Part shown: one piece after another, positions 25,226 through 28,759 of the stretch
Position numbering within the stretch: the first letter of the stretch is position 1
Layout of the letters: each line of letters begins with the position of its first letter
Source of the DNA: Streptomyces sp. WZ-12
GTDB taxonomy: Bacteria > Actinomycetota > Actinomycetes > Streptomycetales > Streptomycetaceae
DNA: 64,000 nucleotides
Direction: 5' to 3'
Assembly (NCBI RefSeq): GCF_028898845.1
Contig: NZ_CP118574.1
Span: forward strand, 4,871,001 to 4,935,000
The notes under the pieces: model-generated
The model's database searches: none
What the model was told of the DNA's origin: nothing
Seen by the model: only the letters and a program-made list of their open reading frames with translations
Program-made: the position numbers and the translations under genes

Positions 25226-26707
25226 TCACTGCGGCGGATACGGCAGCAGCATCCGGTCCACCGCCTCCCAGGACGCCCGCAGCCGGGCCAGCAACTCCCG
25301 TTCGTGCCCGGCCCGGTCGGCCTGCTCCCGGGGGTCGGCGGCGACGTGGAAGAGCTGGTCCCGGCCGCCCTTGCCGCGGTAGTACTTCCAGTCGCCGCGG
25401 CGCAGTGCCCTCTCGCCGCGCACCCGCCAGAACAGGTCCCGCTCGGCGAGGCGTTCCCCGCGCAGCAGGTAGCCCGCCAGGCTCGTCCCGTCCAGGGGGT
25501 GGGCGCGGTCCGGGCGGGCGCCCCCGAGCTCCAGGAGGGTGGCGGTCCAGTCGGGCGTGAACACCGGCTCGTGGCTGACCTGCCCGCCGTCGATCCGGGC
25601 CGGCCAGCGCACCAGCGTCGGCACCCGGATGCCGCCCTCCTGGAGCGACGCCTTCTCCCCGGACAGCGGCCAGTTGTACGACCAGCGCTCCCCGCCGTTG
25701 TCGCTGGCGAAGAAGACGAGGGTGTCCTCCTCCTGGCCCGAGCGCCGGAGCGCGGCCAGCACCTGACCGATCGAGCGGTCCAGGTCCTCGACCATCGCGC
25801 GGTACGTCGCGAGCGAACCGCCGTCCTCGTGGAACAGCGCCTTCCGGTCGCCCGCCCTGATCCGGCGGGCGATCTCGGCGCTCCCCTCGGTGTCACCCTC
25901 CGCGATCCACGGCCAGTGCGGCGTCGTGTAGTTGAGGTTCAGCAGCCAGGGCCGGCCGCCGCCCCGCCCGGCCGTGGTGACGTGGTCCACCGCCCGCTCG
26001 GTGAGGATCCGGGTGTAGTAGCGCAGGTCCCGATGGGTGGCGTCGCCCTCGTACAGGTCGTACTCCCCGGCGAGGCCCAGCTTCGAGTAATACTCCAGCG
26101 CGCCACCGAAGTTACCGAAGAAGGTGTCCCAACCGGAGCGGGTGGGGCTGTAGTCCGGGAGATAGCCGCAGTGCCACTTGCCGATCAGCGCGGTGGCGTA
26201 GCCGGCGTCCCGCAGCAGCGAGGCGAGCGTGGGGTGGCCGGGGTCCAGCCCCACGCCGCGGTCCGCGATCGGCTCGGCCAGACCGCCCTTCGTACGGCCC
26301 GGGTAGCGGCCGGTGTAGAGCGAGAAGCGGGTGGGCGAGCAGGTCGCGGACCCCGCGTACCCCTGGGTGAAGCGGACGCCCTGCCGGGCCAGCCGGTCCA
26401 GGTGCGGCGTGCGGATGCCGGCCGCCCCGTAGCAGGAGAGGTCCGCCCACCCGAGGTCGTCGCCCAGGATGAACAGGACGTTGGGGCGCCGCGAGCGCCG
26501 GCCGGGGGCGGCCCGGAACGGACGTTCGTCGTTCCGCGGCGGTGCGGCAGCGGCGGCGGGTGCGCCCGCGAGCGCACCCAGCCCGCCCGCGGCGGCCGCG
26601 GCGCCGACGCCGGCCAACCCGCCGAAGGCGCGCCGGGAGAGACCCGGTGCCGGGTGGTCGGGGGAGCGGTCGGCGGGGGACGGAAGGGCGGGATCGACGG
26701 AGGACAT
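25226..26707 (-). CDS. Tat-exported sulfatase
   Basis: A 493-aa type I sulfatase that releases sulphate from organic sulphate esters outside the cell. A twin-arginine signal (SRRAFGGLAGVGAAAAAGG; Arg25-26) precedes the alkaline-phosphatase-superfamily core. Metal-ligand Asp pair is D83-D84 in FILGDDLGWADLS. The nucleophile motif is TCSPTR with C123, to be oxidised to formylglycine by a formylglycine-generating enzyme. Further family blocks are IGKWHCGYLP and VFFASDNGGERWS. Start ATG 26707 follows AGGAGAG. A 41-codon leader-peptide ORF of a family linked to sulphur genes lies 240 bp upstream on the same strand, suggesting attenuation control. Confidence 0.9.
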   Translation of the reverse strand: MSSVDPALPSPADRSPDHPAPGLSRRAFGGLAGVGAAAAAGGLGALAGAPAAAAAPPRNDERPFRAAPGRRSRRPNVLFILGDDLGWADLSCYGAAGIRTPHLDRLARQGVRFTQGYAGSATCSPTRFSLYTGRYPGRTKGGLAEPIADRGVGLDPGHPTLASLLRDAGYATALIGKWHCGYLPDYSPTRSGWDTFFGNFGGALEYYSKLGLAGEYDLYEGDATHRDLRYYTRILTERAVDHVTTAGRGGGRPWLLNLNYTTPHWPWIAEGDTEGSAEIARRIRAGDRKALFHEDGGSLATYRAMVEDLDRSIGQVLAALRRSGQEEDTLVFFASDNGGERWSYNWPLSGEKASLQEGGIRVPTLVRWPARIDGGQVSHEPVFTPDWTATLLELGGARPDRAHPLDGTSLAGYLLRGERLAERDLFWRVRGERALRRGDWKYYRGKGGRDQLFHVAADPREQADRAGHERELLARLRASWEAVDRMLLPYPPQ

Positions 26708-26916
26708 CGGTCGGCTCTCCTGGAAGTCGTCGGGGGCCGTACGGGCACGCGCCGCGCCCCCGGGGACGGCGGGGAGGCGGGCGGTCAGCGGGACGTCGCG
26801 CATCTCACACCGCCGTGGCATACGGACAGTGCGGGAAAACTGCCGTAAAAGGTCAGAAAAGGCTCTGCCTCAGCAGCGACGAAGAACGCGAAAGTGCAGC
26901 TCAGAAGCGGTGGCGC

Positions 26917-26939
26917 GGCCTCGGCGGCGGCGCGAGGCC
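26917..26939 (-). promoter_or_regulatory. candidate attenuator hairpin after the leader peptide
   Basis: Stem GGCCTCG / CGAGGCC with a 9-nt loop, starting 8 nt after the leader-peptide stop and within the sulfatase leader. A ribosome stalled near the leader stop would cover it. Confidence 0.4.
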
Positions 26940-26946
26940 ACTGTCG

Positions 26947-27072
26947 TCAGCCGCGGCGACAGACGGCGCTGGCCAGCCGACCGAGATCGACGTGGCGGCG
27001 CCGGACGAGGCGCGGCGCGCGGCGGGGCACCCGGTGACGCACCAGGCGCGCCAAGGGCTGCGGGGTCTGCAT
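26947..27072 (-). CDS. putative leader peptide upstream of the sulfatase gene
   Basis: A 41-aa Arg-rich ORF, ATG 27072 behind AGGA, ending 240 bp before the sulfatase start on the same strand. Its C-terminus RRRHVDLGRLASAVCRRG fits the RR-H-[VI]-DL-x-R-[VL]-ASA-x-C pattern of actinobacterial putative leader peptides, which I recall mainly upstream of sulphur-assimilation and related genes. The single Cys codon TGT lies four codons before the stop, where ribosome stalling could report cysteine supply. It is followed closely by a GC hairpin. The inference is of cis-acting attenuation; the peptide itself probably has no other function. Confidence 0.65.
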   Translation of the reverse strand: MQTPQPLARLVRHRVPRRAPRLVRRRHVDLGRLASAVCRRG

Positions 27073-27199
27073 GGGCAGGAATCCTGGCCGCGTGGCCGTG
27101 GGCACGTCAACCATCCGCAACGTCCCGTTCATGCATCCCTCCAGGCCGCCGACCATCCCCGGTTCGGATGAATGCGCGACCTGCCCTAGACTCTGGGGC
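27073..27199. other. divergent region, sulfatase leader / purF
   Basis: Carries the purF -10 box (27187-27192) and, on the other strand, the leader-peptide promoter, which I could not place. Confidence 0.4.
27187..27192 (+). promoter_or_regulatory. -10 box of purF, leaderless
   Basis: TAGACT ends 7 nt before the purF GTG. A weak -35 TTCGGA lies 18 bp further upstream. Confidence 0.65.
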
Positions 27200-28759
27200 G
27201 TGCCACGTGGTGACGGACGACTCAACCACGACCTGCTCCCCGGGGAGAAGGGCCCGCAAGACGCCTGTGGCGTCTTCGGTGTCTGGGCCCCGGGTGAAGA
27301 GGTCGCCAAACTCACCTACTTCGGGCTGTACGCGCTGCAGCACCGTGGACAGGAGTCCGCGGGCATCGCGGTGAGCAACGGCTCCCAGATCCTCGTCTTC
27401 AAGGACATGGGCCTGGTGTCCCAGGTCTTCGACGAGACTTCCCTCAGTTCCCTCCAAGGCCACATCGCCGTGGGCCACGCCCGCTACTCCACCACCGGTG
27501 CCTCGGTGTGGGAGAACGCCCAGCCGACGTTCCGCGCCACCGCGCACGGATCGATCGCGCTCGGCCACAACGGCAATCTGGTCAACACCGCCGAACTGGC
27601 CGAGATGGTCGCCGCGCTGCCCCGCGACGGTGGCCGGGCGACCCAGGTCGCGGCCACCAACGACACCGACCTGGTGACCGCCCTACTGGCCGGCCAGGTC
27701 GACGACGACGGCAAGCCGCTGACCGTCGAGGAGGCCGCGCCGCGCGTCCTCCCGCACGTCAGGGGCGCCTTCTCGCTCTGCTTCATGGACGAGCACACGC
27801 TCTACGCCGCCCGCGACCCGCAGGGCATCCGCCCGCTGGTCCTCGGCCGCCTGGAGCGCGGCTGGGTGGTGGCCTCCGAGTCCGCCGCCCTGGACATCGT
27901 CGGCGCCAGCTTCATCCGGGAGATCGAGCCCGGCGAGATGGTCGCCATCGACGAGAACGGCCTGCGCGCCTCGCGCTTCGCCGAGGCCCGCCCCAAGGGC
28001 TGCGTCTTCGAGTACGTCTACCTCGCCCGCCCCGACACCGACATCGCCGGGCGGAACGTCTACCTCTCCCGGGTGGAGATGGGCCGCAAGCTGGCCGCCG
28101 AGGCGCCCGCCGACGCGGACCTGGTGATAGCGACCCCGGAGTCCGGCACCCCGGCCGCCGTCGGGTACGCCGAGGCCAGCGGCATCCCCTACGGCTCCGG
28201 CCTGGTCAAGAACTCCTACGTCGGCCGGACCTTCATCCAGCCCTCGCAGACCATCCGTCAGCTCGGCATCCGCCTCAAGCTCAACCCGCTCAAGGAAGTC
28301 ATCCGCGGCAAGCGCCTGGTGGTCGTCGACGACTCGATCGTCCGCGGCAACACCCAGCGGGCCCTGGTCCGGATGTTGCGCGAGGCCGGCGCCGCCGAGG
28401 TCCACATCCGGATCTCGTCCCCGCCGATCAAGTGGCCGTGCTTCTTCGGCATCGACTTCGCCACCCGCGCGGAGCTGATCGCCAACGGGCTGAGCGTCGA
28501 GGAGATCGGCAAGTCGCTGGGCGCCGATTCGCTGGCGTACATCTCCATCGACGGCATGATCGAGGCGACCGCGATCGACAAGTCGAAGCTGTGCCACGCC
28601 TGTTTCGACGGCGAGTACCCGATGGAGCTGCCGGACCCGGAGCTGCTGGGCAAGCACCTCCTGGAGTCCGAGACCAAGGCCCCGGCCTCGTCCGACGTGG
28701 ACGGCGTCCGCACGCTCACCGCCGGGGTCGGCGGCGCCGACGCGCTGCGTCGCCCGTAG
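27200..28759 (+). CDS. purF: amidophosphoribosyltransferase
   Basis: First committed step of purine synthesis: PRPP plus glutamine to phosphoribosylamine. The 519-aa precursor has a 22-residue propeptide ahead of the N-terminal nucleophile C23 (QDACGVFGVW), as in the Bacillus-type enzyme with a cleaved propeptide. Glutaminase domain follows (LYALQHRGQESAGI, VGHARYSTTG, ALGHNGNLVN). The phosphoribosyltransferase domain has the PRPP loop RLVVVDDSIVRGNTQR. Cys residues in IKWPCFFGID and SKLCHACFDGEYP fit the iron-sulphur ligands of this class. Start GTG 27200 is leaderless by its -10 box. purM follows after 33 bp and is probably in the same operon. Confidence 0.97.
   Translation: MPRGDGRLNHDLLPGEKGPQDACGVFGVWAPGEEVAKLTYFGLYALQHRGQESAGIAVSNGSQILVFKDMGLVSQVFDETSLSSLQGHIAVGHARYSTTGASVWENAQPTFRATAHGSIALGHNGNLVNTAELAEMVAALPRDGGRATQVAATNDTDLVTALLAGQVDDDGKPLTVEEAAPRVLPHVRGAFSLCFMDEHTLYAARDPQGIRPLVLGRLERGWVVASESAALDIVGASFIREIEPGEMVAIDENGLRASRFAEARPKGCVFEYVYLARPDTDIAGRNVYLSRVEMGRKLAAEAPADADLVIATPESGTPAAVGYAEASGIPYGSGLVKNSYVGRTFIQPSQTIRQLGIRLKLNPLKEVIRGKRLVVVDDSIVRGNTQRALVRMLREAGAAEVHIRISSPPIKWPCFFGIDFATRAELIANGLSVEEIGKSLGADSLAYISIDGMIEATAIDKSKLCHACFDGEYPMELPDPELLGKHLLESETKAPASSDVDGVRTLTAGVGGADALRRP

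Follow-up and report, generated by a model that had tools for sequence, protein, structure and literature searches.

A sulfatase gene in the 64,000-nt stretch of Streptomyces sp. WZ-12 DNA analysed here (the window) is preceded by a short open reading frame (ORF), which raises the question of whether this ORF serves the sulfatase gene as a leader and how it could do so. The likely start of the sulfatase gene, with AGGAGAG ahead of it, is 26707, and the longest open frame runs from 26821; scanned as this longer frame, the protein matched Pfam PF00884 with 193.5 bits. Its best relatives among solved structures were a sulfatase, an N-acetylgalactosamine 6-sulfate sulfatase, and a carrageenan sulfatase. 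A CSPTR site and a twin-arginine-type start were read from its letters, and the enzyme is presumably secreted and formylglycine-dependent. On its other side, the ORF is flanked by a divergent gene on the opposite strand with a likely GTG start near 27201, which we take from its sequence to be purF. The coordinates of the features are collected in Table 1.

Table 1. Positions of the sulfatase leader and associated elements in the window
Feature	Position	Strand	Remarks
−35 element TTGACG of the predicted leaderless promoter	27105..27110	-	TTGAC conserved in relatives
Putative −10 element CAGGAT	27081..27086	-	18-nt spacer; ends 8 nt before the ATG
Leader ORF	26947..27072	-	41 aa, ATG (27072) to TGA (26947); peptide MQTPQPLARLVRHRVPRRAPRLVRRRHVDLGRLASAVCRRG; motif RRHVDLGRLASAVC; NF042934, 34 bits; conserved, purifying selection
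UGU cysteine codon, +11 from the conserved His	26959..26961	-	Candidate sensor codon; UGU in 175 of 177 distinct leaders
GC hairpin, GGCCTCG-CGCCGCCGC-CGAGGCC	26917..26939	-	7-bp stem, 9-nt loop; 7 nt past the stop; from the preliminary description; not conserved
Post-stop tract, putative Rho-loading site	26887..26946	-	60 nt; C 26, G 19 here; C-rich, G-poor in relatives
Shine-Dalgarno sequence AGGAGAG of the sulfatase gene	26715..26721	-	Window letters
Sulfatase gene, predicted controlled gene	25226..26707	-	493 aa from the likely start; PF00884

The leader ORF and its family

The preliminary description of this locus had reported a 41-codon ORF with a sulfatase gene downstream on the same strand, and had likened its C-terminal pattern to actinobacterial leader peptides found before sulphur genes. 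The arrangement was confirmed from the window letters, and the peptide scored 34 bits against the NCBIfam model NF042934 ('putative leader peptide', cis_reg_atten; cut-off 27), which makes it a member of this family. It shares the motif of the family and the same place before sulphur genes, being a short ORF that lies ahead of a sulphur-related gene and is read in the same direction; this placement is our reading of the NF042934 pattern and no stated family rule. NF042934 is a protein-only model without codon, promoter, or post-stop information, and the features of these kinds described below are new points outside it. The peptide fell outside the two Cys-rich families NF042936 (Ms4527A, 19.3 bits) and NF042933 (Ms5788A, 14 bits), for which the threshold is 45, and its single Cys codon does not form a cluster of the mycobacterial type.

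Seven NF042934 matches above the cut-off were found in the host genome (9.5 Mb, two contigs), among which the window leader scored best; three weaker matches are likely further members, L010 being the least sure. Class-wide, 99 of 148 genomes and 54 of 81 genera had a match at E 1e-4, and the seven genomes with a match in a phylum-wide draw of 149 all belonged to the host's class. A Pfam scan of 20 chosen downstream proteins, 19 of which matched at E 1e-5, showed that other members do precede sulphur genes, as had been claimed for the family. The genes after the other leaders of the host genome encode a ThiS/CysO-like protein (L002), cysteine dioxygenase (L003), sulfite reductase (L004), rhodanese (L005), an ABC permease (L006), GST (L007), flavin reductase (L008), and an SDF symporter (L009); no Pfam match was obtained in the scan for the downstream neighbour of L010. 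Targets in other genomes include luciferase-type monooxygenases, an NMT1-like protein, a 2OG-oxygenase, and DUF4395. The probably secreted sulfatase is tied in this way to a leader family that stands before several sulphur genes and that was found in all 31 sampled genomes of the genus (host included; 4 to 16 matches each at E 0.01 or better). The cysteine dioxygenase found behind L003 and L144 destroys cysteine, and control may run in the opposite direction at these two loci.

Conservation of the leader and its promoter before orthologous sulfatases

Orthologous sulfatases were collected in two sets, the best 80 of 582 from named genomes and the 30 best matches (host included) from 150 sampled genomes of the genus, 54 of which had a match; the loci are not all independent, because the two sets share species. 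The strict motif was found upstream on the same strand in 91 of the 110 sulfatase loci, giving 80 distinct leader sequences, and diverged leader copies (RRRHVDFCHVASAVCRHG) were recognised by eye in L069 and L123. With L060 excluded, the locus of which ends at a contig edge, a leader was present ahead of the orthologous sulfatase in 93 of the 109 assessable loci, the window included. The conservation of the RRHVDL-ASAxC motif at this place, on which the preliminary description had staked its reading, thus held.

In the 80 distinct sulfatase leaders, pN/pS was 0.21 in the motif versus 0.64 in the six preceding codons, and the codon entropy of the motif was 0.80 at third positions versus 0.27 at first and 0.14 at second positions. 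By these measures, the motif region of the orthologous leaders is under purifying selection. Leaders before unrelated genes lose conservation sharply after the UGU codon. Taken together, the NF042934 score, the purifying selection on the motif, and the presence of the leader in most assessable loci indicate that the ORF is more than a chance occurrence. Among the 62 leader loci of the named set, purF was found within the stretch (up to 4 kb) in 40 and was absent in 22, a count that does not include L069 and in which some stretches end at contig edges. Since 22 of the 62 have no purF nearby, the leader appears to go with the sulfatase rather than with purF.

The sequence TTGAC was found 36 to 39 nt before the leader ATG in all 90 loci measured, compared with 64 of 6648 sampled 19-nt windows of the same loci (about 1%). 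The loci measured were the 91 with the strict motif less L025, which has no in-frame ATG; nine loci offered several possible ATGs, and there the ATG within range of TTGAC was used, which made a difference only in L106. The best −10 hexamer, most commonly CAGGCT (42 of 90), ends 7 to 9 nt before the ATG, and it is weaker evidence than TTGAC because it was picked by A and T content. Since the geometry of the promoter is fixed relative to the leader ATG, transcription is predicted to start at or next to this ATG and to give a leaderless mRNA. This speaks indirectly against a start downstream of 26947, which the preliminary description had named as a refutation of its reading.

No recognisable leader was found in 16 of the 109 loci. 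In seven of them (L043, L079, L085, L086, L093, L094, and L096), a promoter built in the same way lies close to the start of the sulfatase gene without any leader ORF, and in L043 the start MQP runs directly into the sulfatase. L067 combines the promoter with a short ORF that contains Cys but not the motif, and in the other eight the same-form promoter was absent from the 420 nt searched. Because seven loci keep the promoter without the leader ORF, the promoter and the leader look as if they were separable parts serving the sulfatase gene; these seven loci represent ready-made natural controls.

The UGU codon and the conserved peptide stretch

The new point that emerged from the leaders is that the Cys codon at +11 is almost always the rare UGU and not the usual UGC. 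In the pooled distinct leaders, it is TGT in 175 and TGC in 2 when the diverged L069 and L123 are left out, and TGT in 175 of 179 when they are added. The other Cys codons of the same leaders comprise 55 TGT and 174 TGC (n = 229; Fisher p 5e-62 versus +11), and TGT accounts for 154 of the 1446 Cys codons (about 11%) of background ORFs. Related leaders count as independent in this test, and its p value is no more than a guide; the argument rests on the spread over genera and on the internal control.

TGT occupies +11 in 79 of the 80 distinct sulfatase leaders (79 of 82 with L069 and L123, in which the codon is TGC by eye) and in 52 of 52 other leaders with a Cys at +11 in a 60-locus set. The latter set left out the sulfatase leaders L137-L140 as well as L141, which is cut by a contig end and was not parsed; L010, not parsed in that count, has TGT when read, and +11 is not a Cys codon in L007 and L185. 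In the class-wide set of 54 loci, 53 could be parsed; 51 of these had a Cys at +11, encoded by TGT in 50. This set contains one leader under two entries (L208 and L216) as well as the sulfatase leader L217, two surplus entries that the pooled figures omit. The 51 leaders span 33 genus codes by our own count, with TGT in 32 of the 33. Where +11 is not Cys, it is a stop codon (L007 and L185) or glycine (L199 and L211).

Sequence context was ruled out as the source of the UGU by a matched control, since Cys codons followed by Arg (CGN) comprise 102 TGT and 2 TGC at +11 and 6 TGT and 50 TGC elsewhere. Ascertainment by the search was likewise ruled out, because the NF042934 protein model is blind to codons. 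Separate tRNA-Cys anticodons for UGU and UGC were also ruled out: the 72 predicted tRNAs (8 in the window and 64 elsewhere) were found to include two tRNA-Cys genes, both with the anticodon GCA. These genes, L266 and L280, are clearly different from each other. None of the other residues common to most unrelated leaders has a fixed codon. Within the sulfatase set, further codon constraint is possible, because Ser +8 is AGC in 77 of 77, Arg +5 is CGT in 64 of 81, and +12 is commonly Arg (73 of 81).

Two simpler explanations were weighed against these data. UGU would be read by wobble, and it is rare in background ORFs. Stalling could then be plainly tRNA-limited, UGU being just a slower, rarer codon and the HVDL stretch an ancestral relic in a peptide without a role. 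We regard this as rather unlikely, since the motif residues, which are common to leaders before unrelated genes, are under purifying selection while synonymous sites vary, and since selective charging of isoacceptors is not obviously applicable with GCA in both tRNA-Cys. Attenuation theory bears on both sides: in the available part of PMC1183508, synonymous codon choice affects sensitivity, which favours plain stalling, whereas a small fraction of regulatory codons gives a less sensitive response, which does not. A trans-acting small protein without any cis regulator would account for the conserved amino acids of the peptide; nevertheless, it is hardly credible, given that leaders accompany a wide range of sulphur genes within a single genome, that the conservation extends to one synonymous codon choice, and that the N-terminal half and the tail are variable.

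The UGU codon together with the preceding HVDLxRxxSA stretch points rather to nascent-chain-assisted stalling at one UGU codon. If the codon matters, a single synonymous change from UGU to UGC should alter regulation, and the leader would show a one-codon sensor at work where theory favours many codons. No recognised account of this leader before sulfatases or of the UGU invariance was found in an open-licence library of papers, which does not prove its absence. The leaders L007 (host) and L185 (a related genome), both before GST-like genes, carry the same motif with a stop codon (TAG and TGA, respectively) exactly where the UGU would stand and with a Cys encoded by TGC at +7, and they perhaps represent variant stalling at termination.

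The region after the stop codon and the putative mechanism

The preliminary description had placed a GC hairpin 8 nt after the leader stop and had positioned a stalled ribosome over it. The hairpin is present in the window, at 7 nt, and is not clearly beyond chance (the 50 nt after the stop fold at −22.1 kcal/mol, z about −1.2, at the structured end of the set). Across the 80 distinct sulfatase leaders, the mean for these 50 nt was −10.5 kcal/mol versus −17.4 kcal/mol in 139 control 5' regions, z was below −2 in 9 of the 80, and no terminator-like site, which requires a T-run, was found after the leader of the window. Classical transcription attenuation, in which the stalled ribosome decides whether the hairpin forms and ends transcription, is therefore very improbable, even though the hairpin sits close to the stop and a different GC-rich inverted repeat was seen by eye at about the same place in the close relative L022. 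With its weak and unconserved counterparts in relatives, the hairpin was given up as a working part; the family membership, the sulphur-gene context, and the conservation before sulfatases that had been proposed with it stood. In the window, CUGUCG, which includes the UGU, can pair with CGACAG after the stop; no such pairing was noticed by eye in the post-stop letters of relatives, and the idea was dropped.

The first 60 nt after the stop are instead rich in C. They contain C 48%, G 23%, and A 7% in the 80 sulfatase leaders, with C exceeding G in 79, versus C 36% and G 36% in the 139 control 5' regions, which were taken from the named loci with kinship ignored. The tracts after other leaders contain C 47% and G 28% (54 tracts, 53 with C exceeding G), and those of the class-wide set C 43.5% and G 28% (53 tracts). 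Among the 18 loci that lack the strict motif, a start could be assigned in six (L043, L067, L069, L093, L094, and L123, among which L069 and L123 carry the diverged leader), and these also average C 47% and G 28%; because of this excess, the C-rich tract may not be the leader's alone. Its composition and its weak folding in most relatives would suit a Rho site better than a terminator, and the host genome has a Rho gene. The tract after L006 is the only one of ten in the host genome with G exceeding C, and it contains TTCCTGG-GTTGGG-like repeats.

The gap from the leader stop to the sulfatase start ranges from 57 to 535 nt across loci, too variable for one shared pairing. This speaks against translational attenuation, in which pairing hides the ribosome-binding site of the sulfatase gene unless a ribosome is stalled on the leader, a mechanism that the available text of PMC13236596 ascribes to cysteine genes of M. 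smegmatis. Masking of the leader raised the predicted accessibility of this site in L022, L030, and the window (L102). However, over the 74 of 80 loci that were folded, all with a placed start and a gap of no more than 330 nt, accessibility was 0.394 with the leader, 0.436 with the leader masked, and 0.383 with the leader shuffled, and masking raised it in 43 loci, by more than 0.2 in only 8. General sequestration by the leader thus found no support over these loci, and we consider translational attenuation unlikely.

On these grounds, the ORF is probably a cysteine-responsive cis-acting leader of a known family, with its response to cysteine deduced from the family and from the codon conservation. 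The sulfatase mRNA would begin at the ATG of the short leaderless upstream ORF. When Cys-tRNA is scarce, the ribosome would slow at the single UGU codon, aided by the conserved nascent stretch RRHVDLxRxxSAx inside the exit tunnel. The stop is the second to seventh codon after UGU in the sulfatase leaders, and a ribosome with UGU in its A site would, from general ribosome size, have its front edge just past the stop, which would suit protection of a Rho site adjoining the stop. The waiting ribosome would let the sulfatase message be continued, most likely because it would shield the beginning of the tract and deny Rho a loading site. With ample cysteine, the ribosome would finish and depart, the tract would be exposed, and transcription would end early, so that sulfatase would be produced under sulphur shortage. 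What is observed is the membership in the family, the conservation, the geometry of the promoter, the near-invariant UGU, and the C-rich tracts of relatives; that the ORF is translated, that ribosomes stall on it, in which direction control runs, and that Rho acts are inferred. Several points count against this mechanism: the C excess in the window is modest and the tract there folds well, a stalled ribosome would probably hide no more than some 10 nt at the beginning of the tract, 16 of the 109 loci have no recognisable leader, the diverged L069 and L123 carry UGC, the gap to the sulfatase start differs widely between loci, the C excess extends to loci lacking the strict motif, and induction by cysteine shortage makes little sense for the leader of a catabolic cysteine dioxygenase. 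Because the leader also precedes that gene, the sign of control may differ between targets. A wider reading, plausible and held only tentatively, would make these leaders class-wide codon-specific arrest peptides, in which RxHVDLxRxxSAx primes the ribosome, UGU and not UGC is the A-site sensor even though GCA is the only tRNA-Cys anticodon found, and Rho reads out on the C-rich tract; if true, it would be an arrest peptide with a trigger depending on the wobble base.

Related systems share parts of this scheme. Cys-rich leaderless upstream ORFs of mycobacteria were reportedly treated by Canestrari in 2020. TnaC of E. coli senses free tryptophan and stalls at the stop codon, ahead of a Rho site. 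As far as the available text of PMC10941005 goes, conserved nascent residues and stalling near the stop are common to TnaC and, putatively, the window leader, whereas the proposed stall site of the latter is a sense UGU codon. The mycobacterial ORFs (PMC4633059, in part; NF042936 and NF042933) are leaderless, as is predicted for the window leader, and likewise have Cys near the stop and sulphur genes downstream, and leaders matching NF042936 share an H[IV]D[LF]xR motif; the window leader differs in having one Cys codon without a cluster and a sulfatase as its target. The cys leaders without terminators (Seliverstov 2005, PMC1262725) likewise have Cys codons near the stop and no conserved terminator hairpin, and Rho is suggested in the available part of that source as a rather weak prediction; those leaders belong to cys/cbs operons of Mycobacterium, Propionibacterium, and Bifidobacterium and have runs of Cys codons. 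The cysS leader uORFC-8-2 of Rhodobacterales also contains Cys codons but, in the available text of PMC8632094, has two in tandem, mostly UGC, and an intrinsic terminator.

In a related genus, the leaders L165 (before a DUF4395 gene), L166, and L215 carry the same motif and, between it and the stop, several Cys codons in a row, and may form a bridge to the mycobacterial polycysteine type. Elsewhere in the window, on the plus strand, a c-di-AMP riboswitch (Rfam RF00379, 53112-53258, 78.1 bits) and the Streptomyces small RNA Scr4115 (Rfam RF02829, 62079-62187, 110.6 bits) were detected.
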